Virus record (IMG/VR): IMGVR_UViG_3300002460_001321
Coordinates: 1 to 23,722 of that record
Origin: a virus
Strand: one strand, 5' to 3'
Length of the DNA: 23,722 bases
The translations under genes and the position numbers were made by a program. Under the pieces are notes generated by a model. That model was given only the letters and a program-made list of their open reading frames with translations. It did not search any database and was not told the origin of the DNA. The first letter of the stretch is position 1. Each line of letters opens with the position of its first letter. Positions 7,041 through 23,704 of the stretch are shown piece by piece.

Positions 7041-7523
7041 ATGAATCAAAAATTTCTTTGGGTCGGGCTACTTGTTGCGTTAGTAATTGCAACTGGAGGG
7101 TACTTTTACCCAACACAGGTACAACAAGTAGTTGATACGCTAGGACGAATCGGAACGCGGTTTCCAAGCGGAATCACCGTTGGCCCCAGCGAAGGCCCAA
7201 ACTCGCTTTCCGCGTCGAATATCTCAAAGCTCATAACAGGAACTTGTAACTTGGGTGGTGCGCCGGCCTCTTTCTCGGCATCCACCACAGCCGTATTCAC
7301 TTGCTCTGCAACGGGGGCGCGTGCTTCGGATATTGTGATGATGACACCGCCAAAAGGCATGGCTTCCACGTCGGCAAACGAACTAGGATTCTTGTATGTA
7401 GCCGCAGAGGTCGTAACCAATGATGTAATTCAGGTTTCGATGACATTGCGGAGCGGTGCGGCGACAACATCATATATCCAAGCCACCTCATCATGGCAGT
7501 ATTGGTTAGTTGATACGCAATAG
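7041..7523 (+). CDS. Membrane-anchored Thr/Ser-rich ectodomain protein I
   Basis: A 160-residue protein of unknown function. Residues 5-23 (LWVGLLVALVIATGGYF) form one hydrophobic segment after a short basic start, fitting an uncleaved signal anchor with the rest outside. The ectodomain is beta-rich, Ser/Thr/Ala-rich and has two cysteines (GTC and FTC, about 20 residues apart) that could form a disulfide. The segment FPSGITVGPSEGPNSLSASN followed by a GTCNL core is of a type I associate with Patescibacteria and their phages, from memory only. It lies directly downstream of the capsid gene, where a tailed phage would not usually place an exported protein. No ribosome-binding site is visible. 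Confidence 0.72.
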   Translation: MNQKFLWVGLLVALVIATGGYFYPTQVQQVVDTLGRIGTRFPSGITVGPSEGPNSLSASNISKLITGTCNLGGAPASFSASTTAVFTCSATGARASDIVMMTPPKGMASTSANELGFLYVAAEVVTNDVIQVSMTLRSGAATTSYIQATSSWQYWLVDTQ

Positions 7524-7528
7524 GGAGG

Positions 7529-7580
7529 TAGAAACCTTACTCGCTCCTTACTTGTGATGGGGGGCGAGATGAGGTTTCTA
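7529..7580 (+). other. Long two-part hairpin after the first anchored protein
   Basis: TAGAAACCT (7529-7537) pairs perfectly with AGGTTTCTA (7572-7580), and CTCGCTCC (7540-7547) pairs with GGGGCGAG (7561-7568) with one wobble. A small TA/ATG-type internal loop separates the stems and the terminal loop is 13 bases. The structure starts five bases past the stop codon. No T-tract follows on either strand, so it is not a standard intrinsic terminator. A 3' stabiliser or processing site fits better. Confidence 0.65.
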
Positions 7581-7623
7581 TAAAAACCTAATAACTAAAA
7601 ATAACTAAAACATTTATGAATTT

Positions 7624-8241
7624 ATGAAAAAATATCTTTATACATCATTATTTGCGATTTTGTTCATCGGGCTTGCCGTTGGGGGGTACATATATCTCGC
7701 TTCACAGAGAGTATTAGGCAACGTCTCCAACACAACTTCGGCGTGCCAGACCGCATCAGCCACGACTTCGCCGAACTATATTCAAGCGGGTCGAGCTACC
7801 ACCACGCTTATACACGATTCTTACTCAAATACTTGCGGCGTCGGAAACGCATCATCCAATCCGACATTATCAGATTCGATAGCGGTAAGGGTGCAGATCA
7901 CCCCGTCTTCTTCTCCGCTTTCTACGCTGGATATGAACGTGCAGTATTCCGATAATGGACAAGATTGGTTTTGGAGTACTCCAAACATTACAGGTTCGAG
8001 CACTAATGTATTCGGGTTAGGAGTTAGGCAAACATTTGGAATAAATGTCGGCGCGACCACGACTCCGAATATGGAGCGATGTATCTCCGATACGACGTGT
8101 TTGAATGGGGCAACTACTTCGCGCAACTATGTGATTCCTGGTTACGCGCGTTACACTAGAATCATCTTTACCGCCCCGATTGGCACACAGCCTTCGGCGT
8201 TTTGGGCGGAGATGATGGGAACTAAACAAAGACAACCATAG
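7624..8241 (+). CDS. Membrane-anchored Thr/Ser-rich ectodomain protein II
   Basis: A 205-residue protein with a basic start (MKKY) and a hydrophobic segment at about residues 6-27 (LFAILFIGLAVGGYIYLA), predicted as a signal anchor. The ectodomain has four cysteines: SAC, NTC, ERC and TTC. The middle region STLDMNVQYSDNGQDWFWS resembles a beta-sandwich of the type seen in discoidin or carbohydrate-binding modules, and the end (ARYTRIIFTAPIGTQ, FWAEMMG) fits closing strands of such a fold. An upstream ATG at 7615 is in another frame and stops after three codons. Function unknown; glycan or surface binding is only suggested by the fold-like pattern. Confidence 0.72.
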   Translation: MKKYLYTSLFAILFIGLAVGGYIYLASQRVLGNVSNTTSACQTASATTSPNYIQAGRATTTLIHDSYSNTCGVGNASSNPTLSDSIAVRVQITPSSSPLSTLDMNVQYSDNGQDWFWSTPNITGSSTNVFGLGVRQTFGINVGATTTPNMERCISDTTCLNGATTSRNYVIPGYARYTRIIFTAPIGTQPSAFWAEMMGTKQRQP

Positions 8242-8270
8242 TTCGTAAAAAATAAATAGTTAAAAACGAA

Positions 8271-9434
8271 ATGAGCTTTCCTCTTTCGCAAATAAAAGAA
8301 AACCTAATTGGACTTTCTCACGGAGGAACTCTGAATAAGGTTAGAAGTCTTGAGGCTTTATTCGAGCGTGCCGCTTCGATGTTTCTGCAAAAATGTAAGC
8401 CATTGGAAACAATGCGATTTGGAACCTTGACCTCACTCGTTCACGATGACGTGTATAACTATTCTTTGCCGACAGATTATAATTCGTTGATAGACCTTCT
8501 ACCTCAAGACAACAGAACTAATTGGGATTTGGCTTTCAGACGTTTTGCGGGACAGTTTGATTTAGAGAAAGCCATTAAGCAGAAGACCATCTCGATTGAG
8601 GGAGACGAGGGTTCTAAAATAATCCGAATAAACTGGCGGACAAGACAGGGTAAAGTTCTTCATTCAATGAATGATGTGGATGATAATGGAACCTGGATTG
8701 CGGTAGGTTCGGCCGCGGGGATTGTTGCCAATACCATCTTCAAAGTTTCGGGTTCTGCTTCGATAGAATTTGATCTTGTGGCTTCGGGAGATGGTATCTC
8801 AAATATCGGAATGTCTGCGGTGGATTTAACGGACGAGGACGAAGTGGCTGATGCGTTTGTTCCGGTATATCTGGGAACCACCACGGGCATAACTTCTATC
8901 ACGGGAATCTGGGGTAACGATATTACTACAGCATACTGGACATCTGCCGCTCAAACTTTGCAAGCAGACGGTACGGCATTTAAGGCAGGATGGAATCTAT
9001 TAAAGTTTCCTTGGAGTACGGCTACCGAAACAGGCATAGTGGCCCCCGCTACCATAGATTCGTTCAAACTGACTTTTGCGGCGACGGTGGCCAAAAATAA
9101 TATAAGAGTAGATAACATCATTTTCTCGATCGGCAGGAATTTTGATATTAAGTATTATTCCAAGTTCTTGTTCAAGAACTCAACGGGGACATATCTTTCT
9201 CGTCCCGATTCAGACGAAGATAACGTAATGGTGGATAATGATTCGCTTCCGCTCTTTTTATTGGAATGTCTAAAAGCAATGGCTCACCAAGTTGAGGGGG
9301 TAGATTCAAACTTTGATTTGGCTTACGCCGAGAGAGAACTGGCCGCTTTATATCCCGCGTTTAAGTCGGAACACCCCGATCAAAGGAAAAAGGCCGCAAC
9401 AAAATACGGGGGTCTCCCTAGATTTCAAAGATAA
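8271..9434 (+). CDS. Head-tail adaptor-like protein with inserted carbohydrate-binding-like domain
   Basis: A 387-residue protein. The N-terminal part (about 1-125) contains SLEALFERAASMFLQKCKPLE, VYNYSLPTDYNSLIDLLP and FDLEKAIKQKTISIE; the C-terminal part (about 295-387) contains YLSRPDSDED, LFLLECLKAMAHQVEG and AERELAALYPAFKSEHPDQRK. Together they look like a helical phage adaptor, the ring joining portal to tail. Between them, residues about 130-290 form a beta-sandwich-like domain (SIEFDLVASGDGIS, GWNLLKFPWS, IDSFKLTFAA, IRVDNIIFSIG) typical in pattern of galactose-binding-like modules. A direct link to the nozzle gene, two bases downstream, supports a connector role. The domain assignment is by eye. 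Confidence 0.68.
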   Translation: MSFPLSQIKENLIGLSHGGTLNKVRSLEALFERAASMFLQKCKPLETMRFGTLTSLVHDDVYNYSLPTDYNSLIDLLPQDNRTNWDLAFRRFAGQFDLEKAIKQKTISIEGDEGSKIIRINWRTRQGKVLHSMNDVDDNGTWIAVGSAAGIVANTIFKVSGSASIEFDLVASGDGISNIGMSAVDLTDEDEVADAFVPVYLGTTTGITSITGIWGNDITTAYWTSAAQTLQADGTAFKAGWNLLKFPWSTATETGIVAPATIDSFKLTFAATVAKNNIRVDNIIFSIGRNFDIKYYSKFLFKNSTGTYLSRPDSDEDNVMVDNDSLPLFLLECLKAMAHQVEGVDSNFDLAYAERELAALYPAFKSEHPDQRKKAATKYGGLPRFQR

Positions 9435-9436
9435 CT

Positions 9437-11284
9437 ATGCAAAGATACTCTTTGGCGGAGGAAACACTCGGATATGTTACCGCGTCGGATGAAACTAATT
9501 CCGATAAGCGTCTTTTAGTTACTGGTTCACAAAACGTCCTCATTGATAGGCAAAAAAAAGTCAAAATTCGTTCGGGATTTACTCGTTTGGGTGCAGGAAA
9601 TAATGCCGAAACGCCCACACGCAACGCATGGACTTGGCTGACTTCCACGGGTACGGAACTTGCTCAAAAATTTTATGATGATGAGCTGGAAGTTTATCTA
9701 GGCACGATAGATGGAACAATTATCAATGCGTGGACGCGGGTAGCGGCAGGTTGGAGTACCACCGAGATTTTAAGACCCGCGAATTGGTTTGACACTACTG
9801 AAAATCTTGACCTTCAAATAATGGTTCAGGGAGACGCAAATGAATATGAGTGGAACGGCGCGGTGGCGGTAGTGCTTTCAATCACGGGTACAACAATAAC
9901 CAAAAATGGAACTAGCACATTTGCTCAAAGCAGATTTTATACAACGAGGAATAAATCCGTGACGTGCGCCAGAACAGGGACGACATACACATATACGGGT
10001 GGTGAGACGACTATAACTTTGACGGGAATTGCAGATACTACGGGACTTGTGGCGGGAGATATTCTGGTTCAGACCATTGTGACCCAGACGAACAAACCGG
10101 CCGCTTCTCATACCAATCACACCATCTCCGCTTTTGAAAATCAGATTATGGTTGGTTCGGAAGATGATAACGAAGTTTTAATTTCCAAGAATACCGATTA
10201 TACAGCGATTACTTATTCCACTCCCCGTCTTTCTGGTGAAGGAGGACTTTTGACCTTGGATGCTCCAGCTAAAGCGTTTGGAATACTTGGTTCATTTTTT
10301 GTTGTTTCTGCGGGCAGGAGTTCATGGTTTCGAGCGAATTATGAACAGATAACTGTTTCCACCACTCTCGCCGAAACTCTGAAGGTTAAAAAATTGAACA
10401 CGGGCGTAGATCAAGGAGCGCAAAATCAAGAAAGTACCGTGCAGTTAGGCAACGCCATTATCTTTCTTTCGCACGAACCTGCGGTGCGGATGATTAGCGA
10501 CCCCAACGAGTTAGAAGGATTAAGTCCCAAGACGCTTTCCAATCCGATTAAGCCAGATTTTGACGCGGAAACATTTACCAACGCGTGCGCTATTTGGCAT
10601 AAAAACGCTTATTATTTATCTGCTCCCGTAAATTCCAAAGTGTATATTTTGGAATTTATTGAGGATGCCGATGGGAAGTTAAAAAGATTTTGGAACTCAC
10701 CCCAAATTTTGCCCGTGAGAGCTTTCTCGGTTATCGGCGATGCTTTGCACGGACATTCCAACGGAGTTCCTGAAACCTATAAACTTTTTGATGGAACTTC
10801 AGATTTAGTGCCGAACGGAACGGCGGGAAATCCAGACGACAAGGTTCCTGTAAATGCTATCGCCGTTTTTGCCTATGACCTATACGGCGACAGGGTTAAT
10901 CTTAAAACCTTTGATGAGTATTTTTCCGAAGGGGAAATTACTCCCGCTACTACCGACTTGCTTCTTACTTTGAATTATGATTTTGGCGGTTCACGGCAAG
11001 TAATCAATCAAACTATTGATGGAACAGATGAAAATATCCTTCAGGGCAATGTCGGTTTTAATTCGCTTGGACAACAGAATCTCGGCGTGAATCCGTTGGG
11101 TGGACTTTTGAACCCGCCCGATGATGCAAGAAAATTTGCGGTCATACACGAAATCGCCAGAGAAGATTTTAGAATGATTCAGGCGGTATTTTCTACTAAT
11201 GAAATTGATAGATATTGGGCGATAACAACTCACGGGGCAAACGCCAAACTATCTCCGAGGAAAAACATTACTATTCATCAATAA
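9437..11284 (+). CDS. Tail nozzle/hub-like beta-rich protein
   Basis: A 615-residue cytoplasmic protein with repeated beta-strand blocks and only two cysteines. Features include an N-terminal NVLIDRQKKVKIRSGFTRLG segment, blade-like units with repeated Trp, Tyr and Gly (WTWLTSTGTE; FENQIMVGSEDDNEVLIS; GILGSFFVVSAGRSSWF; AIIFLSHEPAVRMIS; HKNAYYLSAPVNSKVYIL), and a C-terminal ITTHGANAKLSPRKN. This pattern fits a beta-propeller tail protein like the nozzle or tubular protein B of T7-type phages. Position right after the adaptor agrees, and its presence in place of tube and tape-measure genes supports a short tail. The exact family could not be confirmed. Confidence 0.62.
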   Translation: MQRYSLAEETLGYVTASDETNSDKRLLVTGSQNVLIDRQKKVKIRSGFTRLGAGNNAETPTRNAWTWLTSTGTELAQKFYDDELEVYLGTIDGTIINAWTRVAAGWSTTEILRPANWFDTTENLDLQIMVQGDANEYEWNGAVAVVLSITGTTITKNGTSTFAQSRFYTTRNKSVTCARTGTTYTYTGGETTITLTGIADTTGLVAGDILVQTIVTQTNKPAASHTNHTISAFENQIMVGSEDDNEVLISKNTDYTAITYSTPRLSGEGGLLTLDAPAKAFGILGSFFVVSAGRSSWFRANYEQITVSTTLAETLKVKKLNTGVDQGAQNQESTVQLGNAIIFLSHEPAVRMISDPNELEGLSPKTLSNPIKPDFDAETFTNACAIWHKNAYYLSAPVNSKVYILEFIEDADGKLKRFWNSPQILPVRAFSVIGDALHGHSNGVPETYKLFDGTSDLVPNGTAGNPDDKVPVNAIAVFAYDLYGDRVNLKTFDEYFSEGEITPATTDLLLTLNYDFGGSRQVINQTIDGTDENILQGNVGFNSLGQQNLGVNPLGGLLNPPDDARKFAVIHEIAREDFRMIQAVFSTNEIDRYWAITTHGANAKLSPRKNITIHQ

Positions 11285-11290
11285 TTAAAG

Positions 11291-11296
11291 TATAAT
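11291..11296 (+). promoter_or_regulatory. TATAAT element six bases before the anchored fibre start
   Basis: A perfect -10 hexamer lies in the 18-base gap and ends six bases before ATG 11303, which would put the transcript 5' end at the start codon. The sequence 17 bases upstream (TTACTA, 11268-11273) matches the -35 consensus at only three positions. Confidence 0.5.
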
Positions 11297-11302
11297 AAAA
11301 TC

Positions 11303-12769
11303 ATGTTTAACGTACTCGTATCGGCAATCATCGCAATTACTATTTCGGTTGGTTCTTTCTTTGGGATTAACCAATTTATTCTCAAACCCATACCCGAAAA
11401 CGAAATCAGGGAGATAATTAACTTTTATGTGGAGGAATCTATTAAAAATTCCCAGACCCTTGGAGCCGACTCAACGCTTCCAATCGCGGGTACAACTTAT
11501 AATCTTTCCGGGGCGGGAGTATCTTCCTCCGCAACCTCAATAACTCTCGCAACTCTGACCCTTCCCCAGACAGGTCAGAAACTTGTTGATTCCGATTTCT
11601 CCACTACTTTTTATTTGACCCTAGAGCCGGGGAACAGAACTAGACAAGAGATAGTATCCTGTACCACAGTCGTTCAAAATACGACTACAGCCACGCTTTC
11701 GGGCTGTACGCGAGGATTATCACCCATAACCCCCTATACCGCTTCTACAACGCTCCGGTTCGCTCATGGAGGGGGGACGCAGGTCATCTTCTCTGATCCG
11801 CCCCAATTATTCAACCAATTTGCGGGTAAAGACAATGATGAAACGGTTACGGGGATATGGGATTTCTCGACTTCGCCCACTGTTCCCACTCCAACTGCCG
11901 CAACCCAAGCGGCTAATAAAACTTACGTAGATAGCGGAGTTTTGGCGGGAGCCGCAACTTCTACCGAAAGCATAACGGGTATCTCGCGCCTTGCGACAAA
12001 ACTTCAAGGAGCTTCTTCCACTCCGACTACCGCCAATACACCATTGGTTATTCAAGCTCAATCTGCGACCTCAACTTATAATGGCGGGACGGCTGGAGGA
12101 AATGGATTGAATGTTGTGGTAACGCAGAATAATAACACTATTGACCCTAATTTTATTGCAACATCTTCCAATTACACTTGGACGGGTAACCAGACATTTA
12201 CTAAATCAACTACCACAAACGCAACAACAACTTCTTTACAGGTTTCAGCACTTGCTTCAACCTCGCAAATGATTGTGGGAGCGTTGGGGATAGGTGTGGC
12301 GACTACCACGCAGAGAAATGTGGAAATAGCGGGGGATTTGCAGATTTCCGGGGCGCTTTCAGTTAGCGGCGCCGGTCTTGATAAGATGGTGTTCCTTACC
12401 ACGCCGGTAAACTCGGTAAACCGGGCCACGTTTACCGCGGGAACGTACACCGACGTTGATTTAACCTCAACAACTACGCCAAATGTAGCGCGGTTTGCAA
12501 TTATAAACGCGAGACTTGATTGCACTTTAAGTTCCGTAGATGGCTCCAAAGGGTGCAGTGTCAAATTCCGCTTAAACGGTTCATCTGCCACTGCCAACCT
12601 TTCGCGGCTCGATAACATTCTTCAAGTTGCCAGCGTGAAAAGTGTACTTTCTGGGTTCTTTATCGTTCCCTTAGACTCAGGCGAGATATTCGAGTACGAC
12701 GTGAGTTCGCTGACGGGTGATGTGCCGACGATTGCGTTGCTGATTGATACAGTCGGATATATAAAATAA
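11303..12769 (+). CDS. Membrane-anchored tail-fibre-like protein
   Basis: A 488-residue protein with an N-terminal hydrophobic segment (VLVSAIIAITISVGSFFG, about residues 4-22) and then a very Thr/Ser/Ala-rich body. A fibre-like motif FSTSPTVPTPTAATQAANKTYVDSG (in part: ATQAANKTYVDSG, around residue 200) resembles the ATxAANKxYVD segment common in phage tail fibres. The C-terminal quarter (after LDKMVFLTTPVNSV) is a compact beta domain. Four cysteines occur as two close pairs (VSC/SGC and LDC/KGC). An exported fibre is unusual for a tailed phage; alternatives are a virion fibre with a hydrophobic docking helix or a host-surface protein. It has its own TATAAT and no ribosome-binding site. Confidence 0.68.
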   Translation: MFNVLVSAIIAITISVGSFFGINQFILKPIPENEIREIINFYVEESIKNSQTLGADSTLPIAGTTYNLSGAGVSSSATSITLATLTLPQTGQKLVDSDFSTTFYLTLEPGNRTRQEIVSCTTVVQNTTTATLSGCTRGLSPITPYTASTTLRFAHGGGTQVIFSDPPQLFNQFAGKDNDETVTGIWDFSTSPTVPTPTAATQAANKTYVDSGVLAGAATSTESITGISRLATKLQGASSTPTTANTPLVIQAQSATSTYNGGTAGGNGLNVVVTQNNNTIDPNFIATSSNYTWTGNQTFTKSTTTNATTTSLQVSALASTSQMIVGALGIGVATTTQRNVEIAGDLQISGALSVSGAGLDKMVFLTTPVNSVNRATFTAGTYTDVDLTSTTTPNVARFAIINARLDCTLSSVDGSKGCSVKFRLNGSSATANLSRLDNILQVASVKSVLSGFFIVPLDSGEIFEYDVSSLTGDVPTIALLIDTVGYIK

Positions 12770-12775
12770 ACCTTT

Positions 12776-14401
12776 GTGGCAAAAATCTACACCGATGAGC
12801 TAGGGCGGAAAGTATATGACTATTTGGGTCAAACTTTTTCAGCTACGACAGCCGAGCCGATTCTAAAATCTGAAGCTACTTCATTTTCCACCAACGCGGG
12901 AGCAGAAATCATAGACAGAAAGAAAGCGACATTTGATTTTCTTTCACCTCAAACCCCAGAACAAAGAGCGCAAGCATATCAAGCCGCGGGAGTTCCTTTG
13001 CCTCTTCCGCCAAAAATGGAAACCCCCGCGCCCGAACCCAACAGGGCCATTGACGGAACGATTGGCCAAGTTTTCACTTTTGACGAAATCTTAAAATCTC
13101 CCGCGGGCAATGACTTTACGGGATTTCACCAGACCGCCGATGGAAAGTATATTGCGGACGAAACAGCTTTAGCACGCATGGGGATTGTGGGAACGTCGAG
13201 CAATAAGACTCCCGCTCAAACCCAGGCCGATACGGATTTAACAAACGCTAAAGCCGAGCGGGATGCCGCAACTACAAAACTTAAAAATATAGATGTTTCC
13301 AACGACCCCGCGCTCCAGCAATCTCTCGCTAACATTTCAGCGCAATGGAATACGCGGATCGCGGATATGGAGCGCATCAACAAAAGCCGAGAAGCCGCTA
13401 TCACAACAACGGGAATCCGTTTGGGTTCCCGTTTTACGGGAGGCGCGGGTGGAATGTTTGGGTCAATTATTTCGGAGGAGGAAAGACAAGGAGTTTCAAG
13501 AATTGCTGGGTTAGAAGCTCAAAAACACGGAGCTTTGCTTTCCGCGACTTCGGCTTATAGAGAACAAAAATGGACAGAATACGCCAAATTTGTTGATTTA
13601 GCTGAAACAAAATATAAAGACCAAGTAGCCGAAGTTAATAAACTGAATGAAGCCCAAGTCGCGCAGGATAAAATTATTCAGGAAAGATTGAAACAAGAAC
13701 GCCAAGCCCAAAGATTGAGTTCTTTGGCGACTGCGGTGGCTAACTTAAAGAGTCAAGGCATAGAAGACCCCGCGACTCTTTTGGATTATATAAATACTTA
13801 TCAAGACGGTACTCAAACGGGAGCGAATCTGACAGCCCAAGAGTTGGATGAGATTCTGGACTTGTATCCTGCGAAGAAAGAGCCGAAAGAACCAAACATT
13901 CCCGCCGATATTCAGAAGTTCAAATCATTTTTTCCGAATACGGATATTACAACTCCTGAAGGTAGGCTACAGTATTTGAAGTGGCAAGCGCAAGAGGCGG
14001 CGGCGGAGAGAAAACCAGACGAATCTCAAAAGATTAAACCCGATACATTAGTTCATATGACGTTGAGAACGGCAGGATTAACGTCTGACCAAATTGATTC
14101 TATTGATAAAGGAGTAAGAGAAAATGGCTTTGATGTGGTGTATAAAGCAGAAAAAGACGCTGGCGCGTCCGAAGATAAGTTAAAAGCTCTGCAAAAAGCG
14201 TATGGAGTAAAACCCATTGTAACTAAGGCGGACATTGAAAAAGACATGAGAAGTTTGTTCACTACCAAAGAATTGCACCAGATGGCTGAAGACTTCGGAT
14301 ATGCTTCGGCATGGACGAAGGCAGATGAAGATATTACAAGAATGTTCGAGGAGGCTTCGCAGGAACAACTCATAAGAAAATTGGCCGAGTATATTAAGTG
14401 A
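12776..14401 (+). CDS. Coiled-coil internal virion (ejection) protein candidate
   Basis: A 541-residue protein starting at GTG, since no ATG lies near and the frame MAKIYTDELGRKVYDYLG begins seven bases after the preceding stop. It has no cysteine or signal peptide. Helical, Gln/Ala/Lys/Glu-rich segments occur at about residues 145-205 and 265-325, with a Gly-rich break between (RFTGGAGGMFG). The C-terminal part (about 420-540) consists of short charged helices. Length, composition and pairing with the 1206-residue gene one base away suggest internal proteins ejected with the DNA, as in T7 gp14-gp16 or P22 ejection proteins. No enzymatic motif was found. Confidence 0.55.
   Translation: MAKIYTDELGRKVYDYLGQTFSATTAEPILKSEATSFSTNAGAEIIDRKKATFDFLSPQTPEQRAQAYQAAGVPLPLPPKMETPAPEPNRAIDGTIGQVFTFDEILKSPAGNDFTGFHQTADGKYIADETALARMGIVGTSSNKTPAQTQADTDLTNAKAERDAATTKLKNIDVSNDPALQQSLANISAQWNTRIADMERINKSREAAITTTGIRLGSRFTGGAGGMFGSIISEEERQGVSRIAGLEAQKHGALLSATSAYREQKWTEYAKFVDLAETKYKDQVAEVNKLNEAQVAQDKIIQERLKQERQAQRLSSLATAVANLKSQGIEDPATLLDYINTYQDGTQTGANLTAQELDEILDLYPAKKEPKEPNIPADIQKFKSFFPNTDITTPEGRLQYLKWQAQEAAAERKPDESQKIKPDTLVHMTLRTAGLTSDQIDSIDKGVRENGFDVVYKAEKDAGASEDKLKALQKAYGVKPIVTKADIEKDMRSLFTTKELHQMAEDFGYASAWTKADEDITRMFEEASQEQLIRKLAEYIK
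14390..14395 (+). promoter_or_regulatory. TATATT element seven bases before the 1206-residue gene
   Basis: GTATATTAAGTG repeats almost exactly the motif before the portal and collagen-fibre genes. It lies in the last codons of the previous gene (Tyr-Ile-Lys-stop), so coding constraint may partly explain it. No -35 box was found. Confidence 0.3.
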
Positions 14402-14402
14402 T

Positions 14403-17400
14403 ATGCCCTATACACCAGTTTTAACCGCAAAACCTAGTTTGGGCTATGTGCCAGTGTTAGGAAAAACAAATATCCCAACGCCGTCTTTACCACTAGTCAT
14501 AAACAGTATTTTTGGCGAAACGGCACAATCCACTCCCGCGACGCTTCCTGCTGATTATCAACCGATTCAAAAAGCAGTAGGTGGATTTGCCGCCGATATT
14601 GGAAGGAGTATCGCTAGTAACATTGCAAGCGCCGGATTAACTATCGCGGGGAAAATAAATCCTACCGCGGGCGAGTTGTTGAAAGCCGAGGATTTTCACA
14701 ACTACTTTTCGCAAGGGCTTTTTGAAACTGTATTTGGCAAAGGAAAAGAAGTAAAATCTATTGAGCAAAGAATCGCTGAAGCTGAACCGAAAGTAGATGA
14801 ATGGAAAAAGGCGTTACAAGAAGTTGCTCAAACCCCTGGATTGAACGTACGAGAGCGTTTCGTGACGACAGTTCTTGCCAACCTGGACGTACCCTCTGTG
14901 GCTTTCATGGGAATTATGGGAAGCGTGGGACTTGATTTAACCCCGTTTGGAGGACTAGAAAAGGGCGCGTTCAAGGCGATGATAGAAGTCAAAACTATTG
15001 GAGAAGGAGTTAGTGTCTTGACTAAAATGGGAGTAGCGGAAGACCTAGCCCGTCAATTTGCTCAAGACGTGGTAAAAGTAATTGATGAAAAGTCAGCCAA
15101 AGCATTATTCACACATATCGCGGAAGTGCAACAAAAAACTACGGCAGTCAAAGAAGGCATAGCTGGCAGACGAGGACTTGAAAAAGTCGGTCTTGCTCCC
15201 GAAATATCGCCCACAATTTCTAGGACAGAGGAATCATTACTCAAAAGTCAAATACGTGCTGAAGCTAGAACAGCCAAAACTGTTGCAAAAGATATTCGTC
15301 GAACTGAAATTCCTGAAGCGGTGGCGGGAGCGACTGCGCGTGTAACAGAAAAGGCGACGACAGCTTTGCGCCAGCAAGAACTTTCCAGTTTTAGAAAACT
15401 TATTCGGGAAAGATTTTCTTATGAAAAAGCGATTGACGAGGTTCAGGCGATTGCTCAAAAAACAGTTCAAGTACTTAAAAATAAAGCTAAAGACTTTTTG
15501 GCGCAAAAAGCAGAGATTGTGGGTTATATCCGTACCCGTGTGTCTCCCGAACTGCGCGGCAGACTTCTCTCCGCAATGGCAACGGCTAAAACTCAAGGAA
15601 ATATTGCTTCTATCGTTCGCAGAACAAATATATTACGCAACGAAGAAATAAAAAAAGAAATTATCGGAGAGGTCGAAAAGATAATCGAGAAAGTAGATTC
15701 TTTGCCTAAACGACAGCAGGAGCGAATAGTAGAACTAACTGATAATTTAACCTCTAGGACTTTTTCTGAAAAGACCCAAAAGAAACTTGCCGATTTGAAG
15801 GATTTTCTTTCCCGTGAACCAAGCGCGTTATTTAAGTTTGGAGCGAAAACATTAAAGAAAACCGAACTTGCGGGAGAGTTGGGCAAACAAAACATTAGGG
15901 ATGTTCCAATACGAGACCTTATCGGTTTGCATCGTCGCTTAGAACATATTGCCGAGCAGGGAAAAGTTGTTGGCAGAGTAACGGCAGAAACCAAAGCGTT
16001 AAAAGTGGACAACGCTCTTAAAGAAATTGCTCAAAGTTCAAGAAATTTAGATAAAGGATTGCCCGCTCCACGAAAACCCGGAACGCCAGTTCCTGCGACA
16101 AGTTTCGCGGGTGCGAAAGATTCAATAGTCGAGGGTATGCGAAAAGGAGTGCAGTATTATGCTTCTCCTGATGTCGGGTTTCAGATTTTAGATAAAGGTG
16201 AATGGTTTGGCTCTAATTGGAGAATCTTCAAAGCACCAATGGATGAGGCCACTGATTTGTCGAACGAAGTAAGAAACACGATTATAGATAATCTTTTCGT
16301 GAAGATAAAAGACATCGAGGGTCGTTTGGGGAAACTTAAAAAAGAAAACTACGAACGTGTGATGTTATGGGCAACGCTTCGCCAAACCGGGGGGCGGGCA
16401 AAGCTCTTGAAAACTGATCCGAGAATGTACACCGATACATTTTTGGACAGCATTAAACTAAATGATAACGAAAGAGAATTTTATAACCTTGGCCGTTCTA
16501 TTTTTGACGAACTTCGCCCGCAGATTGAAAAAGTCACGTGGGCTACGCGCGGTGAAAAATTAGGCAAAGTAGATAACTATTGGAGTTGGGTGACGGATTT
16601 TAACAACTCCGACGAACTGTTCCAGCGTCTTTCTGGGGACTTTAATCTGCGAACCCGCACCGAACAAGGGTTCATCAAAACACGAAGTTTGGCGGGAACG
16701 CAAAGAATCAATCTTGATGCTTTGGAAGTTCTGACAAAACATATCAGCGATGCAACAGACTTCATACACAAGGAAGAATTGTTAAATCATTTGAGTCAAA
16801 TCGCACGGTCTGACAAATACGCAGAATCAGTAGGCAAAATCGGACAAAAGTGGACAGCGGGATGGCTGGATTTAATCGCGCGGGGCGGAACTCCAAAAGG
16901 ATACCAGCCCGGCCCGGTTTCTACCATTATCCGAAATATCGGACATGGAGTATTGGGTTTCAAGCTCTCTCCCATAGTCAAACAACCACTTTCTATGATT
17001 GTTGCGACTGGATTTCTTGGAAAAGACTCGCGTTATATGTTTGATGGTTCGCTACTCATTGGAAATTTTCGGGAAGGCATACACAAAATATCCAAACAAC
17101 AACTTTACAGGTCATTTGACGACCCTGTTTATACGCAGATGGCAAAATCCAAGAGACTGAAACAATGGCAGGAGTGGGGATATAAAGGAATCAAAGCCTT
17201 CGACTCTTTTTCGGCGGATAGCGTATGGTACGCGGCGTATCGTAAAAGTTTTAATGATAGGAGATTACAGTTCAACGCCGACGACTTTCGCGCGGGTAAG
17301 GCAGATAAAACCGCTAAAGAATATGCTGATTTAATAACACGTCGCACACAAGGAAGTTCGGAATATAAAGACGCGCCATTACTTTATTCTGTAAAATCGG

Positions 17401-18023
17401 ACAAGGATTATGTGATGGCACTTTTGCAGTTTCAGAGGTTTATTCACAATCAGTCTCTTTTGTGGAGAGATGCTAAAGTGGCATTGTTAAAGGAAAAAGA
17501 CCCTATAAAAGCGGCGGCGATTGCAACTTCGCTGGTTGCGGCGGGGATTGCCGAAGGATATATTACAACTGGAATAGCGCAAATTTTCGGAAGTCAGGAG
17601 ACTGCAAAAGGGGAAAGAGAACGACATATCGTCGAACGAGTATTTAGCGGTGTTGTGACTAACTTACCCGTGATTTCAAATCTTACAAGCATGGTGGAAT
17701 ACGGCGGAAGCGGAGTGCCTGCGATGGATGTATTCCGAAGAATGATTCAGGGAGGAACATCGGTGGTCGCGGGGAAAAAGACTGAAACAAAAATTAAAGG
17801 AGGGTTACTGGCGGCAGAAAGCGTAGCAGAAGTTGGTGGAATATCTGGCGCAAGTCAGGTGGGTCAGTTAATTAGAAAAGCTATTCCTGTATCCAAACCA
17901 AAATCAAAAGCTAACGCTGAAATTCTGAAAAAGTATGGCATAGAAGCTCCTTCTAAAAAAGACATACTTGAAAAATATAACATCAGTATCCCTAAATCTT
18001 CGCTATTAGAAAAATACAAATGA
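14403..18023 (+). CDS. Very large internal virion/ejection-type protein
   Basis: At 1206 residues this is the largest product here. It has no cysteine and no signal peptide. Residues 1-115 are Pro/Thr-rich then Gly/Ala-rich; 160-185 is hydrophobic (VAFMGIMGSVGLDL); 270-560 is a long charged helical region; 590-1130 is a mostly helical domain with many aromatic residues (MLWATLRQTGG, VDNYWSWVTDF, FSADSVWYAAYRKSF, LLQFQRFIHNQSLLWRDAK). About 1037-1062 is Ala/Ile-rich and could insert in a membrane. The C-terminal part resembles large phage polyvalent or ejection-type proteins, from memory. The last 38 residues carry three KY repeats. Gene size and neighbours fit a protein delivered into the cell with DNA. 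Confidence 0.58.
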   Translation: MPYTPVLTAKPSLGYVPVLGKTNIPTPSLPLVINSIFGETAQSTPATLPADYQPIQKAVGGFAADIGRSIASNIASAGLTIAGKINPTAGELLKAEDFHNYFSQGLFETVFGKGKEVKSIEQRIAEAEPKVDEWKKALQEVAQTPGLNVRERFVTTVLANLDVPSVAFMGIMGSVGLDLTPFGGLEKGAFKAMIEVKTIGEGVSVLTKMGVAEDLARQFAQDVVKVIDEKSAKALFTHIAEVQQKTTAVKEGIAGRRGLEKVGLAPEISPTISRTEESLLKSQIRAEARTAKTVAKDIRRTEIPEAVAGATARVTEKATTALRQQELSSFRKLIRERFSYEKAIDEVQAIAQKTVQVLKNKAKDFLAQKAEIVGYIRTRVSPELRGRLLSAMATAKTQGNIASIVRRTNILRNEEIKKEIIGEVEKIIEKVDSLPKRQQERIVELTDNLTSRTFSEKTQKKLADLKDFLSREPSALFKFGAKTLKKTELAGELGKQNIRDVPIRDLIGLHRRLEHIAEQGKVVGRVTAETKALKVDNALKEIAQSSRNLDKGLPAPRKPGTPVPATSFAGAKDSIVEGMRKGVQYYASPDVGFQILDKGEWFGSNWRIFKAPMDEATDLSNEVRNTIIDNLFVKIKDIEGRLGKLKKENYERVMLWATLRQTGGRAKLLKTDPRMYTDTFLDSIKLNDNEREFYNLGRSIFDELRPQIEKVTWATRGEKLGKVDNYWSWVTDFNNSDELFQRLSGDFNLRTRTEQGFIKTRSLAGTQRINLDALEVLTKHISDATDFIHKEELLNHLSQIARSDKYAESVGKIGQKWTAGWLDLIARGGTPKGYQPGPVSTIIRNIGHGVLGFKLSPIVKQPLSMIVATGFLGKDSRYMFDGSLLIGNFREGIHKISKQQLYRSFDDPVYTQMAKSKRLKQWQEWGYKGIKAFDSFSADSVWYAAYRKSFNDRRLQFNADDFRAGKADKTAKEYADLITRRTQGSSEYKDAPLLYSVKSDKDYVMALLQFQRFIHNQSLLWRDAKVALLKEKDPIKAAAIATSLVAAGIAEGYITTGIAQIFGSQETAKGERERHIVERVFSGVVTNLPVISNLTSMVEYGGSGVPAMDVFRRMIQGGTSVVAGKKTETKIKGGLLAAESVAEVGGISGASQVGQLIRKAIPVSKPKSKANAEILKKYGIEAPSKKDILEKYNISIPKSSLLEKYK

Positions 18024-18123: not shown

Positions 18124-18133
18124 AAAGTCAAGT

Positions 18134-18910
18134 ATGCCCACCATCGCCGAAATCATCCAAGCCCGCAATCCCGCCTCCGCTCTTGAAAAAGAGGTGTCTA
18201 AGTTAGCGAGAGATTTGGAATCTCTAGCTCGTCAATTCGAGAAATTGCAATCTGACTCCGAGAGCTTAAAAAGCGAGATTAAGGCCGAAGTACAAAGCGA
18301 ACTAGGCAAGGTGGAGTCTCAAGCAGGGATACTACGGCACGTTGAGTCTTTGAAGGGCACACAGGGGCCGCAGGGCAACAAAGGAGATAGAGGCGAGTCA
18401 ATCATCGGCCCACAGGGAGAAAGAGGCCAACGGGGGCTTTTGGGGCCTAAAGGCGAGGATGGAAAAGCGGGCAGGGACGGCAAGGACGGGCTTAAAGGAG
18501 AAATAGGGGCGATTGGTCTAGCTGGCAAAGATGGGGAAAACGGTTCTCCCGACACCCCCGACCAAGTTATAGAAAAAATCCATGATTCCAAGAAGCTAAT
18601 TCAAAGAGAAAAGATTGATGGACTTGTTCAGTTTCTTGGGAACTTACAGCACGCTATCCGAGAGAAAGGCGGTGGGGTAGGCGGAGGAGGATTAGGGACG
18701 CCTGTTCATCAAAGTTTTTCAACAAGTTCTGTAACTACAACACTGACTTTATCTAACAATGTAGCAGCAAATGGATTTGCTATTTGGGCTTATTATAATG
18801 GACAATTTATTGTTAGAGGAAATCACTATACAATAAGTGGGAAAATAATAACTTTGACATTTATACCTAGCGACTCTACTAATGTTGATGTTATTTACTT
18901 TAGAACATAA
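18134..18910 (+). CDS. Collagen-like trimeric fibre protein
   Basis: A 258-residue fibre. Residues about 17-60 are a heptad-type coiled coil. From Gly75 there are 21 Gly-X-Y triplets, five before and sixteen after a two-residue interruption at GES-II-GPQ; these are rich in Lys, Glu, Asp and Arg and should form a trimeric collagen-like shaft. A short helix (IREKIDGLVQFLGNLQ-like) and a GGGVGGGGLG hinge (about 180) lead to a beta C-terminal domain of 65 residues ending DVIYFRT, which resembles tip domains of phage fibres. It has no cysteine and no signal peptide, so it is probably a true virion fibre. The DNA turns sharply AT-rich at the hinge, pointing to an exchanged tip module. Confidence 0.8.
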   Translation: MPTIAEIIQARNPASALEKEVSKLARDLESLARQFEKLQSDSESLKSEIKAEVQSELGKVESQAGILRHVESLKGTQGPQGNKGDRGESIIGPQGERGQRGLLGPKGEDGKAGRDGKDGLKGEIGAIGLAGKDGENGSPDTPDQVIEKIHDSKKLIQREKIDGLVQFLGNLQHAIREKGGGVGGGGLGTPVHQSFSTSSVTTTLTLSNNVAANGFAIWAYYNGQFIVRGNHYTISGKIITLTFIPSDSTNVDVIYFRT

Positions 18911-18912
18911 TA

Positions 18913-18928: not shown

Positions 18929-18968
18929 TCTTAATAAAGACTTTTATAGGTAAAAAACTTAAAACATA

Positions 18969-21140
18969 GTGAAAAAACTTCTTGTAGCCATTTTCGCCAT
19001 ATCACTTTTTCTAGGAACGCAAAACGCTTTCGCGCAGTTACGTATTTTCCAAGTTCCACAAGGGGGTACTGGCACATCAACGGTTTCATCTGGCGCAGTT
19101 CTCTATGGCAATGGTACGTCTCCGTTTCTTTCTGTCGGGCCATGTTCAGATGATCAAATTCTGAAATATACCAATAATATCCCTTTGTGCGCTACTGATG
19201 CGACCGGAGGCGGAGGAGCTTCGTCGGACTTCAATTATGTTGTAGGCGCGGAGGGGATTTATTTAACTCCCACTTCTACTATTGTGGGGCTTTTAACCAA
19301 TGCTTCTTCAACCATTTGGAAATTAACTACGGGGTTTTCGACTTCTACCAATGCAACCTCCACCAGCTTTCATTCCAATTTTGGCAACTTCTCAACCTCA
19401 ACGATTGGAAATCTTTTAACAGGCACAGTTACCGCAACATCAACTACTGCTAGTTCGTCTTTCAAAGATTTATTTTGGATAGATGGTCAAGCCACTTCGC
19501 TTTCACTTTCTGGGGGGCTAACCGCTCTAGGAGCTTTATCAGGTTCTAACCTTTCAGGCACAAATACGGGGGATATAACTTTGGCAGGTACTCCTAACTA
19601 TCTAACTCTTTCTGGTCAGCAGATTACTTTGACTAAACTTGATATTTCTGACGATACCAACGCTACAGCAGGTGTGGGGCTTACGCTTACAGCCAATGAT
19701 TTTGCTTGCGATACGGCCACCAGCGTGGCGTTTGGATGTCTTACTGCGGCTGATTGGACGACATTTAACTCTAAACAAGCAACCATCTCGGCAACTTGGC
19801 CTGTTATTTTAACTGGAGCTACGCTTTCGTTTGATGGACTTTCGACTTCCACCGCCGCAGTCATAGGAAATATCCCTTATTTTTCGGGAGTTAATACGTT
19901 CGCCAATGTAGCCACGGGCACAGTTTCAGGTTCGGGGGGCATAAACGTAACCGCAGGACGCTCGGCTATAGGGGGAGCGTTGGCTATTTCTGCTGATTGC
20001 ACCACCATTACAGGCGGCGCAGGACTTTGCGACGGGGTTGATGATACCAGTGCTGGTGGTGCATTTGCCTGGACACCGACCACCTGGGGAGGAGTTGCCG
20101 CCAATTCAACCTCGACCCTGCTTCTTCTAAATGCTGGCGCGGTCATCTCGACTTCTTCAATCGGACAACTTACAGTAGGAACTTTAACTGCCACTTCAAC
20201 AACCGCTTCTACAACTTTAGATGATTTCTTCTTCGTTCAAGGCCAAGGCACGGGATTATCCGTAACCAATGCAACTATAGGGACACAGCTTGCTGTAACG
20301 CCTCTAACTTCGGCAATTCTTTTAACGGGAGCCACCGGAATTTTAGCTGAATATACTGGCGCAACCTGTACCAACCAATTTATCCGTTCGCTTTCTGTTT
20401 TGGGCGCGGCAACTTGTGAGACCGTGGCTAATACAGACCTTGCAAACTCAACAATAAGCGGTATTGCCCTTGGCTCGAATTTGGCTGATTTAACAGCGAC
20501 TAACGGCACTCTTACTTTTTCAGGAATCTACACAGGCGCGACGGCGCGTACCATTGGTCTTAATCTTGCGTCTTCAAACTTATGGACTGCTTCAACTACA
20601 ATCCTTAATCTTTCGTCCGTTCTTTCTACTTCTACACAAGCTACTTCAACAAATCTTCATATCATCGCAACGGGTTATTTAACAATTCCTCAAGAAACTG
20701 CGCCAGTAATGGGTACGGCAGGTCAGATTGCTCTTGACACAACCGATAATCAATTCCTCATCGCAACCTCGACAAATAACGACCCGATAGTGCTTCCTTC
20801 AAAAAGCGGATTAAGATTCAGGGTATCTTCCACTTCCGCTCCCTTTTTTAGTGGATTTTCTTCTGGTAAACTTATAGGACTCCCTTCTGAATCTGATGGA
20901 TACTCCACCATTGCTATAACTTGTTCTGTCTGGGGAGGGACTTCGATTGTGGTGAATCTTACTGACGCGCAAGATAATGATTCAAATCAAATAACCTGTG
21001 GTACGGCAACATCCACTACCGCTATTCAATCGAATGGTACATTTACGGCACTAGAAGGCGCAAATCTTGAAACAGGAACAGTAACAGGAACTCCTAACTT
21101 TCTTTATATAAATATAACGAGGGTATGGACTCGTGAATAA
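18969..21140 (+). CDS. Secreted Thr/Ser-rich fibre-like protein with paired cysteines
   Basis: A 723-residue protein starting at GTG. It has a clear signal peptide: MKKLL, a hydrophobic core, then NAFA|Q, a good type I cleavage site at about residue 22. The mature part is beta-rich, with fibre-type motifs such as GGTGTSTVSSGAVLYGNG, NTGDITLAGTPNYLTLSG and TAADWTTFNSKQ, which resemble tail-fibre repeat units. An internal repeat (about residues 143-180 and 395-432) shares the core ATSTTAS, xDLFW/xDFFF and GQATSLS/GQGTGLS. Ten cysteines form five close pairs, suggesting disulfides. No ribosome-binding site is seen. It could be a host-attachment fibre that passes through the Sec route, or a surface adhesin displayed by the infected cell; catalytic motifs are absent. 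Confidence 0.72.
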   Translation: MKKLLVAIFAISLFLGTQNAFAQLRIFQVPQGGTGTSTVSSGAVLYGNGTSPFLSVGPCSDDQILKYTNNIPLCATDATGGGGASSDFNYVVGAEGIYLTPTSTIVGLLTNASSTIWKLTTGFSTSTNATSTSFHSNFGNFSTSTIGNLLTGTVTATSTTASSSFKDLFWIDGQATSLSLSGGLTALGALSGSNLSGTNTGDITLAGTPNYLTLSGQQITLTKLDISDDTNATAGVGLTLTANDFACDTATSVAFGCLTAADWTTFNSKQATISATWPVILTGATLSFDGLSTSTAAVIGNIPYFSGVNTFANVATGTVSGSGGINVTAGRSAIGGALAISADCTTITGGAGLCDGVDDTSAGGAFAWTPTTWGGVAANSTSTLLLLNAGAVISTSSIGQLTVGTLTATSTTASTTLDDFFFVQGQGTGLSVTNATIGTQLAVTPLTSAILLTGATGILAEYTGATCTNQFIRSLSVLGAATCETVANTDLANSTISGIALGSNLADLTATNGTLTFSGIYTGATARTIGLNLASSNLWTASTTILNLSSVLSTSTQATSTNLHIIATGYLTIPQETAPVMGTAGQIALDTTDNQFLIATSTNNDPIVLPSKSGLRFRVSSTSAPFFSGFSSGKLIGLPSESDGYSTIAITCSVWGGTSIVVNLTDAQDNDSNQITCGTATSTTAIQSNGTFTALEGANLETGTVTGTPNFLYINITRVWTRE

Positions 21141-21141
21141 T

Positions 21142-21648
21142 ATGAATAAAACAATTATCATTGCAGGGACAACTTTAGTTCTAGTCGCAGGAGTTTGGTC
21201 TCTACTTCCTAATGACAAAATAACTCTTACCAATCCGCAGGTTATTCAATGGAGTAAACCCACCACTGACGCAGAATGGGCGGAGGATGTGAAAAAAGAA
21301 GGTTTTGAACACCGAGCTGACGCTATTTTACAAGAAATGGTAGATGTTCATAAAGCTAAATTATTGAGAGTCATTGAGGGCAACCGAGAAACTTTAGAAT
21401 GTATGGAATGTATCAAGTTTAAGCTACGCCAAGCCAATCCCGACTGGACTGTGGCGGATGTGAACAATGAGTATCAAAACCAAGTCAATCAAGCCACTTG
21501 GGAAGTAGAAAAACTAAAACAGTCCGTTGAAAGAATGGAAAAGGAAATGGAGTTGAGAAAGGCGGGAAAAGTAAATAGGCGAGAAGACATATTACAAGCC
21601 AAGCCCTCGACTGAAAGGGAAAGAATAGAACTAGAAAAACTCAAATGA
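21142..21648 (+). CDS. Anchored coiled-coil protein with CxxC
   Basis: From ATG 21142 the product is 168 residues; an upstream in-frame GTG at 21133, overlapping the previous stop, would add three. Residues about 4-22 (IIIAGTTLVLVAGVWSLLP) are a single membrane segment. The outside part has many charged residues with a long coiled coil after residue 105 (EVEKLKQSVERMEKEMELRK) and one CMEC motif. One membrane helix plus a coiled coil resembles the layout of an inner-membrane spanin, but there is no lysin or outer spanin nearby and the host may lack an outer membrane, so that is a weak alternative. It overlaps the next gene by ATGA and is probably coupled to it. Confidence 0.65.
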   Translation: MNKTIIIAGTTLVLVAGVWSLLPNDKITLTNPQVIQWSKPTTDAEWAEDVKKEGFEHRADAILQEMVDVHKAKLLRVIEGNRETLECMECIKFKLRQANPDWTVADVNNEYQNQVNQATWEVEKLKQSVERMEKEMELRKAGKVNRREDILQAKPSTERERIELEKLK

Positions 21649-23267
21649 AAAAACTACTTATAATCTTTGCGTTTCTGGCTTTAGTGCCTTTGGCTAAGGT
21701 AGATGCCACTGCGTATTATGTCTCGTTTGAAACGGATATCGTCAATGGCAATGGACTTGCCACAACTACTCCTTTTAATAATCTTGACTCATTCACCGAA
21801 GTCGCTAGAAGTGCTGGAGATATTGCTTTTGTAAGAAGGGGATATGCTTCTACTACGAATGTAACTGACCTTAACTTCACTTCCGATGGCACTATCGCAA
21901 ATCCAATAATTATCTCTGCTGACTACGATAACCTCTGGAACGATTTTGCTTCTTCAACTCAAACTTATACTGTAGCGGTGGCTACTTCCACCTTTACCGC
22001 TTCGGCGGCACAATCAGAAATAATCGTTGGTGAATGGGTATATGTAAATGGCGATTGCGCGGAAACCTATAACTCAACTTCTCTTAATCAATGCGAGTTC
22101 GCTTACGAAGTATCGGCAGTGGCAAGCACATCTATATCTTTTTACTTACCCTACAAAGGCAATCAAACAGGAGCAGGGCATACTTTAAGGATTTTATCTC
22201 AAACTACTTTGGGCAGTAATCCGCAGTGGAATGTGGCTACTGGGGATTTTCAGTGGAACTTTGATACTGACAATTTTTGGTTAGTAAAGGGAATTGATAT
22301 TAGGGGCACGGATGTAAATGGTAGTGTTGAAATAGATTCTTCTGATGGTACTTTCTTTGAAGACATTTTATTTACTGGTGATGGTTCAACTGCGGTTTGT
22401 GTTTTTTTTACTGATGACGGTTCTAATACTATCTTCAAAAAGATACGTTGTTCTGGATACGGAGTAGGAAATAGTGGTTTTAATCAGAGCGCAGATACTT
22501 ATGGTACTTTAACAGTTCAAGACTCAATCATAGATGGGAATGGTGTAGGAGATAGATTCTTGCCCACAGCAAATCCTACACTAGCGTTTGTAAATAGATT
22601 TATTAGAGACTCGTTTATTGGAGGCAATACACAAGATGATATTGGTATTGCTGGTGCTGGAACAAAAAATATCTATAGAAATGTTATTCTGCGGTCTTCC
22701 GATGAGGTAAAGACTTTTACAACTTCTCCTTCTAGTCTGTTTTTTGAAAATCACGATGGGAATATTCTCTCCTCTCAACAAAACTCTATCGGGGCTGGAG
22801 TAAATATCAATACCATTTTACTTCAATCTACCACTACTAGTCCTGTTATCCGTTCTGGCGGCGGTGCTACCTCAATTCAGACAATCCCCACCACCAACAC
22901 CACCTCCATCTGGGACTTCAACAAAATCAAACTCTTCGAGTATCCCATCTACACCAACACCACCTCTAAAACTTATACTATGTATGCAATGTCTACTTCC
23001 ACTGCGGCGTGGACTACTGACCCGACTGCTAGTGAGTTCTGGCTACAATGTGAGTATTGGGCACATGATACAAACGCTACGTCCACGCGCAAGATTAAAA
23101 AGTCCACAGGAGTTTTTGATTTCAACGGAAGCACTGCGTGGCAAAGCATAAATGTAACCTGCCAACCATCTCAAACAGGAATAAATTACGTTTCAGCTTG
23201 GTATGCAAAAACAAAAGAAGCGGGTATGAATGAAGTGTTTATTGATTCTACAATAGAAATCCAATGA
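21645..23267 (+). CDS. Secreted beta-helix protein, possible tailspike-like
   Basis: A 540-residue protein with a signal peptide (MKKLLIIF then LAKVDA|T at about residue 22). The mature N-terminus, AYYVSFETDIVNGNGLATTTPFNN, resembles the opening of right-handed parallel beta-helix proteins, and residues about 210-400 have repeated short Gly/Asn/Asp turns with Ile/Val/Phe strands (FWLVKGIDIRG, FFEDILFTGDG, IFKKIRCSGYG, LTVQDSIIDGNG, FIRDSFIGGN, NIYRNVILRSS), as in pectate-lyase-like tailspikes. The C-terminal 90 residues form another beta domain with FWLQCEYWAHD. Six cysteines occur in three pairs. Glycan cleavage or binding is likely for the fold, but no catalytic triad can be assigned by eye. 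Both ends overlap neighbours by ATGA. Confidence 0.72.
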   Translation: MKKLLIIFAFLALVPLAKVDATAYYVSFETDIVNGNGLATTTPFNNLDSFTEVARSAGDIAFVRRGYASTTNVTDLNFTSDGTIANPIIISADYDNLWNDFASSTQTYTVAVATSTFTASAAQSEIIVGEWVYVNGDCAETYNSTSLNQCEFAYEVSAVASTSISFYLPYKGNQTGAGHTLRILSQTTLGSNPQWNVATGDFQWNFDTDNFWLVKGIDIRGTDVNGSVEIDSSDGTFFEDILFTGDGSTAVCVFFTDDGSNTIFKKIRCSGYGVGNSGFNQSADTYGTLTVQDSIIDGNGVGDRFLPTANPTLAFVNRFIRDSFIGGNTQDDIGIAGAGTKNIYRNVILRSSDEVKTFTTSPSSLFFENHDGNILSSQQNSIGAGVNINTILLQSTTTSPVIRSGGGATSIQTIPTTNTTSIWDFNKIKLFEYPIYTNTTSKTYTMYAMSTSTAAWTTDPTASEFWLQCEYWAHDTNATSTRKIKKSTGVFDFNGSTAWQSINVTCQPSQTGINYVSAWYAKTKEAGMNEVFIDSTIEIQ

Positions 23268-23530
23268 AAAAACTACTTTTAATTCCATTATTCCTCCTCC
23301 CCCTCACCGCAGGTGCTATTACAGGAGACGATACTCGCTTCGACTGGTCTTTAGGCCAACCCGCTATCACCGCAGACAACACAACTACCTGTAATGACAC
23401 AGCACAAGCTAGATTTGATTGGGTACTTGGACAACCAGCAATAGTGCATGATGCTACGGCTAATTGTACTGCGGCACCCCCCGCGGCAGGAGGTGGAGTA
23501 TCTGACGAAATAATCTTTTTTGAAGAATAA
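23264..23530 (+). CDS. Small secreted protein with two FDW-LGQPAI repeats
   Basis: An 88-residue protein with a signal peptide (MKKLLLIPLFLL, then TAGA|I at about residue 18), leaving about 70 mature residues. The mature part has two units: RFDWSLGQPAI (25-35) and RFDWVLGQPAI (50-60), each followed by a short Thr/Asn/Asp segment and one cysteine. A Pro/Ala/Gly linker leads to an acidic end, SDEIIFFEE. The repeats differ at most synonymous sites in the DNA, so the peptide motif is under selection. The gene overlaps the beta-helix gene by ATGA. Function unknown; a peptide that binds a partner through the repeats is a reasonable inference. Confidence 0.65.
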   Translation: MKKLLLIPLFLLPLTAGAITGDDTRFDWSLGQPAITADNTTTCNDTAQARFDWVLGQPAIVHDATANCTAAPPAAGGGVSDEIIFFEE

Positions 23531-23545
23531 ATTGATAAGATTTCG

Positions 23546-23704
23546 ATGAGACCATTCAACGCTATCGTATTCATCCCCCTCGCCATTTTTCTCACGTTTC
23601 TTTTGTGGCTGTTTTTGGTAACCCAAAATGAAAATAAGATACCGATTTTGGAAGATGTAGAATTTATACCGAATGAAATTATATTTGAAGAAGGCAAAGG
23701 TTAA
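23546..23704 (+). CDS. 52-residue single-pass membrane protein
   Basis: ATG 23546 opens MRPFNAIVFIPLAIFLTFLL and continues WLFLVTQ, one strong hydrophobic segment at about residues 6-26, followed by a polar, acidic tail ending EFIPNEIIFEEGKG. It begins 16 bases after the secreted repeat protein and ends one base before the next ATG. The tail shares EIIF-EE with the end of the preceding protein (DEIIFFEE), which suggests a common partner. A holin cannot be excluded on size and topology, but a single helix with an acidic tail is not diagnostic. No cysteine; no clear ribosome-binding site. Confidence 0.6.
   Translation: MRPFNAIVFIPLAIFLTFLLWLFLVTQNENKIPILEDVEFIPNEIIFEEGKG

Follow-up and report, generated by a model that had tools for sequence, protein, structure and literature searches.

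Signal-bearing fibre-like proteins with paired cysteines conserved within the structural module of an uncultured tailed-phage clade

By the current understanding, the structural proteins of tailed phages fold in the cytoplasm, a reducing environment, and are assembled there. The described systems closest to the locus presented here include the lambda protein Lom, which is expressed late and has been implicated in adhesion (PMC9836094), the pneumococcal PblB, for which a signal peptide has been predicted, and the S. mitis PblB, which is required for tail morphogenesis and gets to the surface of other cells after lytic release (PMC4508584), as well as the ConA-like lectin genes of groundwater Patescibacteriota phages, proposed to aid surface adhesion (PMC12911398). 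The locus itself is an IMG/VR-type virus record of 23.7 kb (IMGVR_UViG_3300002460_001321, positions 1 to 23,722; this whole stretch is called the window), in which eight genes for proteins with an N-terminal signal lie in and next to the structural region of a tailed phage. Real export of these proteins, with oxidative folding and paired cysteines, is very probable; it is well supported because the cysteines are paired only where a signal is present and because the pairs shift as units. On the sequences, it is considered moderately probable that the fibre-like members of the set are late phage fibres or adhesins, exported via Sec, disulfide-folded outside and kept on or near the surface of the infected cell.

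An earlier note, made from the letters alone, had proposed that eight genes open with a signal. All eight are open frames at the following coordinates, and each begins with a strongly hydrophobic stretch, whose best Kyte-Doolittle mean over 15 residues ranges from 2.15 to 2.84.

7041..7523, plus strand: the '+1' exported protein, with signal anchor, a motif of the LGA-x-GTRFPNG(I/L) type, variable beta-rich C-terminus and 2 Cys; family A4
7624..8241, plus strand: the '+2' exported protein, with signal anchor, beta-sandwich-like domain and 4 Cys
11303..12769, plus strand: exported fibre-like protein, with signal anchor, helical linker, beta domain at about 61-170 and variable C-terminus
18969..21140, plus strand: long exported fibre, with a Sec signal ending in cleavage-type manner (..NAFA/Q), an LRxxQxPQGGTG motif after it, 29% Ser+Thr and 10 Cys
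21142..21648, plus strand: signal-anchored Lys-rich protein, probably coiled-coil, with CxxC; not fibre-like
21645..23267, plus strand: exported protein with signal peptide and 6 Cys; start beta-helix-like by eye only; no Pfam, PHROG or NCBIfam match
23264..23530, plus strand: small exported protein with signal peptide and 2 Cys; RFDWxLGQPAI present twice
23546..23704, plus strand: single-pass membrane peptide of 52 aa, 0 Cys

The treatment of the eight as one set holds as far as the signal is concerned, which all of them bear, but the products of 21142 and 23546 are not fibre-like, so that the eight do not form one class. The start of 21142 is an ATG inside an open reading frame (ORF) that opens at GTG 21133, and the C-termini of the last two proteins (23264-23704) are alike (..SDEIIFFEE and ..PNEIIFEEGKG). 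The exported window proteins found no family match in Pfam, PHROGs or NCBIfam; in the same three collections none of them matched a Lom/Ail outer-membrane barrel, and 7041 and 7624 matched no head-fibre family in PHROG or Pfam.

The signal calls follow a hydrophobicity rule (15-residue Kyte-Doolittle mean), applied alike to the window and to reference phages. No gene in the rest of the module exceeds 1.1, and of 79 structural genes in T7, P22, lambda, crAss001 and phi29 a single one passes, namely lambda Lom; standard tailed-phage genomes hold almost nothing like a conserved exported fibre set. Relatives of the window were collected by a portal search (24 loci) and a capsid search (80 loci). 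The n-region before the hydrophobic core has a mean charge of +1.38 in the post-capsid proteins and +1.42 in the orthologues of 11303, as compared with a mean preceding charge of -1.72 for internal hydrophobic stretches, and it is negative in only 1 of 109 signal-bearing proteins. The core, with a median length of 20 residues (post-capsid) and 19 (11303 orthologues), is like that of uncleaved anchors, while the core of 18969 ends in a typical cleavage sequence; a positive n-region and a hydrophobic core, the two parts of an N-terminal signal, were both found. The +1, +2 and 11303 proteins appear to have N-terminal membrane anchors, and 18969, 21645 and 23264 probably carry cleavable-type signals. 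The virion gene order, and the capacity of podophage ejection proteins to insert into membranes on entry, would also agree with hydrophobic N-termini that serve as virion-internal anchors or membrane-inserting ejection segments, with cytoplasmic assembly and no Sec export. This origin is highly improbable in view of the positive n-regions, the cleavage-type signals on the 18969-type proteins, the confinement of cysteine pairing to signal-bearing proteins and the swap of the anchor for a LysM-type module, the latter two being described below.

The cysteine counts of the eight proteins in gene order, 2, 4, 4, 10, 2, 6, 2 and 0, are exactly those of the earlier note, and the proteins that it gave as cysteine-free (the scaffold, the capsid protein, the second decoration copy, both ejection candidates and the collagen fibre) indeed have none. 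Within the window alone, the even counts are weak evidence for export, because some proteins without a signal are even too, with two cysteines in each of the portal, 8271 and 9437. Single cysteines occur in dec1 and 3676, and three in TerL. It is the relatives that settled the argument. Counted on Cys-containing proteins, with near-duplicates removed at 70%, even numbers occur in 91 of 93 post-capsid exported proteins and in 21 of 22 orthologues of 11303, as against 16/37 for the portal, 16/30 for the adaptor, 8/25 for the nozzle, 9/34 for decoration and 3/16 for the capsid controls; in the 3' exported set (2 to 24 Cys per protein) 22 of 23 are even. Cysteine parity tracks the signal, not the gene class. 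Proteins sampled from the putative host class have even counts in 14/17 exported versus 37/76 cytosolic cases.

The pairs can also be followed column by column. In alignment A5 of the 11303 orthologues, columns 183 and 199 both hold cysteine in 16 rows and neither does in 8, never one alone, and the same holds for columns 144 and 151 of alignment A6, which are both cysteine in 6 rows. Cysteine 237 of A5, present in 7 rows, has a likely partner in column 213 in 4 of them and in column 166 in the other 3, to judge from column counts and reading of the alignment. The signal-less orthologue in L098 has none of the A5 pairs, and that in L053, signal-less too, retains 183/199 among five Cys in total. 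Cysteine pairs are gained, lost or moved as units. In the predicted structure of 11303, the domain at about 61-170 is confident (predicted local distance difference test, pLDDT, about 85-93), with Cys120 and Cys135 placed in adjacent, paired strand segments; the model supports this strand pairing rather than readable distances, and the remaining pairs fall in its low-confidence parts. The model of 7624, a helix at 3-26 plus strands, is poor (pLDDT 59).

The genes on which the synteny and the controls rest, together with the remaining structural genes, are the following.

1129..3078, plus strand: portal protein (PHROG 156 portal, 8.6e-5), with 24 related contigs at 49-100% identity; context
6048..7013, plus strand: HK97-fold major capsid protein (Pfam Phage_capsid_4, 1e-7), with 80 relatives kept; synteny anchor
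8271..9434, plus strand: adaptor-like protein by position and conservation, without signal, 2 Cys; control
9437..11284, plus strand: nozzle-like tail protein by position and conservation, with a weak PHROG tail match (0.025), without signal; control
12776..14401, plus strand: probable internal or ejection protein by position, no signal, no Cys; context
14403..18023, plus strand: large probable ejection protein of 1206 aa by position, no signal, no Cys; context
18134..18910, plus strand: collagen-like tail fibre (PHROG tail fibre to 1.2e-15, Pfam Collagen 3.9e-9), no signal, no Cys

The synteny was counted over the 54 distinct contigs on which capsid and adaptor genes are both present; in 52 of them the interval between the two holds one or more signal-bearing genes (two in 41, four in one). 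A signal-bearing gene directly follows the nozzle in 28 of 30, and the earlier observation is borne out by these relatives. The +1 proteins make up a single family, A4 (56 rows), in which the anchor is followed by a conserved motif and the C-terminus varies strongly. Nearly all relatives whose sequence extends past the collagen fibre encode a long signal-bearing Ser/Thr-rich protein behind it. A complete, circularly permuted relative of 39.6 kb (G020:C144), with 32% capsid identity, still carries a pair of signal-bearing genes behind the capsid gene and, following the fibre slot, a signal-bearing protein of 994 aa with 12 Cys. A chance origin of the feature is rejected because of the cysteine parity, the reference-phage control and the conservation among relatives.

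Variants of the arrangement were also seen. The +2 slot of L043, L044, L049 and L081 holds a beta-like protein of 94 aa with no real signal and one Cys, and L043, L044 and L081 are also without the +1 gene. At L014:7637-9039 the +1 exported gene is tandemly duplicated, each copy having 229 aa and 2 Cys. In L016, L018, L032, L060, L066, L076 and L077 the post-capsid exported genes are kept and the tail module is different: a diverged adaptor (25-29% identity) is preceded by additional ORFs of about 150-950 and 620 aa.

The means by which the proteins may be held at the cell differ between relatives. In L088, L078 and L013 the orthologue of 11303 opens with a cleavable-type signal, followed by a LysM or LysM-like stretch that replaces the anchor; the Pfam LysM match (2.9e-11) lies in one A5 member, from its sequence probably L088, and the LysM-like stretches of L078, which is outside A5, and of L013 were assigned by reading. 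In the equivalent 3' slots of relatives, exported proteins carry Laminin_G_3/ConA-like lectin domains (4.8e-28 and 3.8e-18, in two relatives) and, in one case, a YadA_head domain (1.2e-7). A +1-type C-terminal domain (6.8e-22) occurs on a Patescibacteria contig of chromosomal appearance, where its neighbours are a signal-bearing protein and ABC-transporter-like genes. The LysM or lectin/YadA-type modules and the chromosomal-looking +1-type locus speak for proteins that are tethered to, or secreted from, the cell that makes them. Out of the options offered earlier, namely a surface layer, fibres maturing outside and secreted adhesins, display or secretion is thus favoured by the LysM swap and the lectin/YadA domains, and the three can only be ranked.

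From the computed signals, conservation, paired cysteines and domain swaps we infer display, timing, binding and benefit in the following sequence. The genes would be transcribed late together with the virion genes, and the infected cell would export the fibre- or adhesin-like proteins via Sec; disulfides would then form outside the cell, VKOR being often encoded in host-class genomes (25/55 genomes of the putative class). The +1, +2 and 11303 proteins would be held by their N-terminal membrane anchor and, in three relatives, 11303 by the wall-binding LysM or LysM-like module after the cleavable signal. An adhesive fibre coat might in this way be displayed before lysis and alter the contacts that the cell makes with partner cells, with other phages or with progeny virions.

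Several findings weigh against such a display. The exported-protein genes occupy virion positions, the 11303 family resembles a virion fibre, and LysM and lectin domains are also found in virion fibres; the 11303 orthologues of L053 and L098 are without signal, so that one function may work without export; the +1-type ORF on the Patescibacteria contig is cut at the contig end, its N-terminus and signal not being visible; and the parity counts are not independent owing to homology among the proteins, for which reason the column coupling weighs more than they do. The same conserved positions among virion genes and the two signal-less orthologues would be expected if the proteins were virion fibres maturing outside, that is, exported, folded and oxidised at the cell surface and joining virions at or after lysis. 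The motifs conserved just past the signal and the variable, phage-fibre-like C-termini also point in that direction, as does the structure search with 11303, whose best BFVD matches are to phage proteins, among them one with an S74 domain (no significant match in the PDB; the low-confidence model of 7624 gave weak BFVD matches to small phage beta proteins). However, a protein with an uncleaved anchor or a LysM tether to the wall would be expected to stay on cell debris, the collagen fibre, encoded in the same cluster, is itself not exported, and we know of no tailed phage that assembles via outside-maturing fibres; this alternative is regarded as rather unlikely.

Export combined with a cell tether would likewise suit surface proteins that mainly block superinfection or mask receptors rather than adhere to partner cells, and exported exclusion proteins are common in phages. 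Known exclusion proteins are, however, mostly small, single and often early, whereas here three to eight large variable proteins belong to a late module, and the lectin and YadA-type domains suggest binding, so that we consider superinfection block an improbable main role.

The cell on which a fibre coat would be displayed is likely of the Patescibacteria, from binned contigs: the capsid relatives in contigs of metagenome-assembled genomes come from Kaiserbacteria (49%), Microgenomatus (40%) and a Methylococcaceae bin (33%), and one binned capsid relative is a contig of only 3.9 kb, so misbinning is possible; no link by integration or by spacers ties the phages to a host. The relative in the Methylococcaceae bin, G020:C144 (L171+L172), may be a misbinned epibiont phage or have a truly wider host range. 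The use of TGA as stop speaks against host lineages with genetic code 25, and that code is not needed here, since genes end at TGA. A search of 276 host-class genomes, run without a positive control, yielded no member of the 11303 family. While the link to Patescibacteria suggested earlier is likely to hold for the host, it was too broad as a general trait. An unrelated, siphophage-like prophage lying beside host-like metabolic genes in a Patescibacteria-class genome (G108:C11; L161, L162) has no signal-bearing protein in its structural module except two at the lysis end, which rules out a trait of all Patescibacteria phages; the feature therefore belongs to this phage clade. A papain-like ORF was noticed by eye at the lysis end of the G108 prophage, and L101 encodes an Amidase_2 protein that also matches Peptidase_C1, though below threshold.

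Among the other genes of the window are TerL, the scaffold and two decoration-like copies, and a near-identical 29-kb contig spans the region upstream. TerL matches the PHROG 38 terminase (1.1e-62), which together with the portal and the HK97-fold capsid makes up the Caudoviricetes hallmarks. Tube or tape-measure genes, which a short-tailed phage with podophage-like gene order would lack, gave no match in the window, the adaptor and nozzle being assigned from gene order only; the window's portal, adaptor and fibre had no INPHARED match, nor had the outgroup portal and nozzle, and scans for promoters and terminators showed no enrichment relative to shuffled sequence. A Cpn60-type chaperonin lies upstream of TerL at L002:3367-5061 and L004:5985-7715 (PF00118, 2.8e-20 and 1e-23), other relatives repeatedly have ORFs of similar size ahead of TerL or the portal, and chaperonin-like sequences are also present in L097, L110 and G020:C144.

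The chances appear evenly balanced that a tailed-phage clade covers its infected host with an exported fibre coat of several components, or matures fibres outside via Sec and disulfides. If it did, a part of tailed-phage structural assembly would have been moved across the membrane, perhaps in a way that controls how an episymbiont and its partner cell touch. An export cassette that is conserved and disulfide-paired in dozens of uncultured phages would break the rule of cytoplasmic assembly and would give a molecular handle on cell-to-cell contact changed by the phages of ultra-small episymbionts.

The literature searched, the coverage of which was incomplete, yielded no description of a conserved export cassette within the structural module of a tailed phage, and the known systems each share a part of the feature. 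The Patescibacteriota phage lectins share a Pfam family with the exported 3'-slot proteins of two relatives, but they are reported as scattered auxiliary genes, and signal peptides are unmentioned in that text (PMC12911398). The head fibres phi29 gp8.5, whose gene adjoins the capsid gene, and crAss001 gp21 are, like 7041 and 7624, small fibre proteins among head genes; both are without signal, whereas 7041 and 7624 carry a strong conserved one. PblA/PblB of the streptococcal phage SM1 and the pneumococcal PblB are, like much of the window set, fibre-like phage proteins, and they act as cell-surface adhesins, a role proposed here for the window set; the export signals of the window type, however, are conserved clade-wide and the cysteines paired. 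Lambda Lom (Ail/Lom outer-membrane protein, PF06316) is likewise exported and encoded next to tail genes; it is, however, an outer-membrane protein from one short gene that comes last in the tail operon, while the window clade has three to eight fibre-like proteins interleaved with the capsid, adaptor, nozzle and fibre genes.

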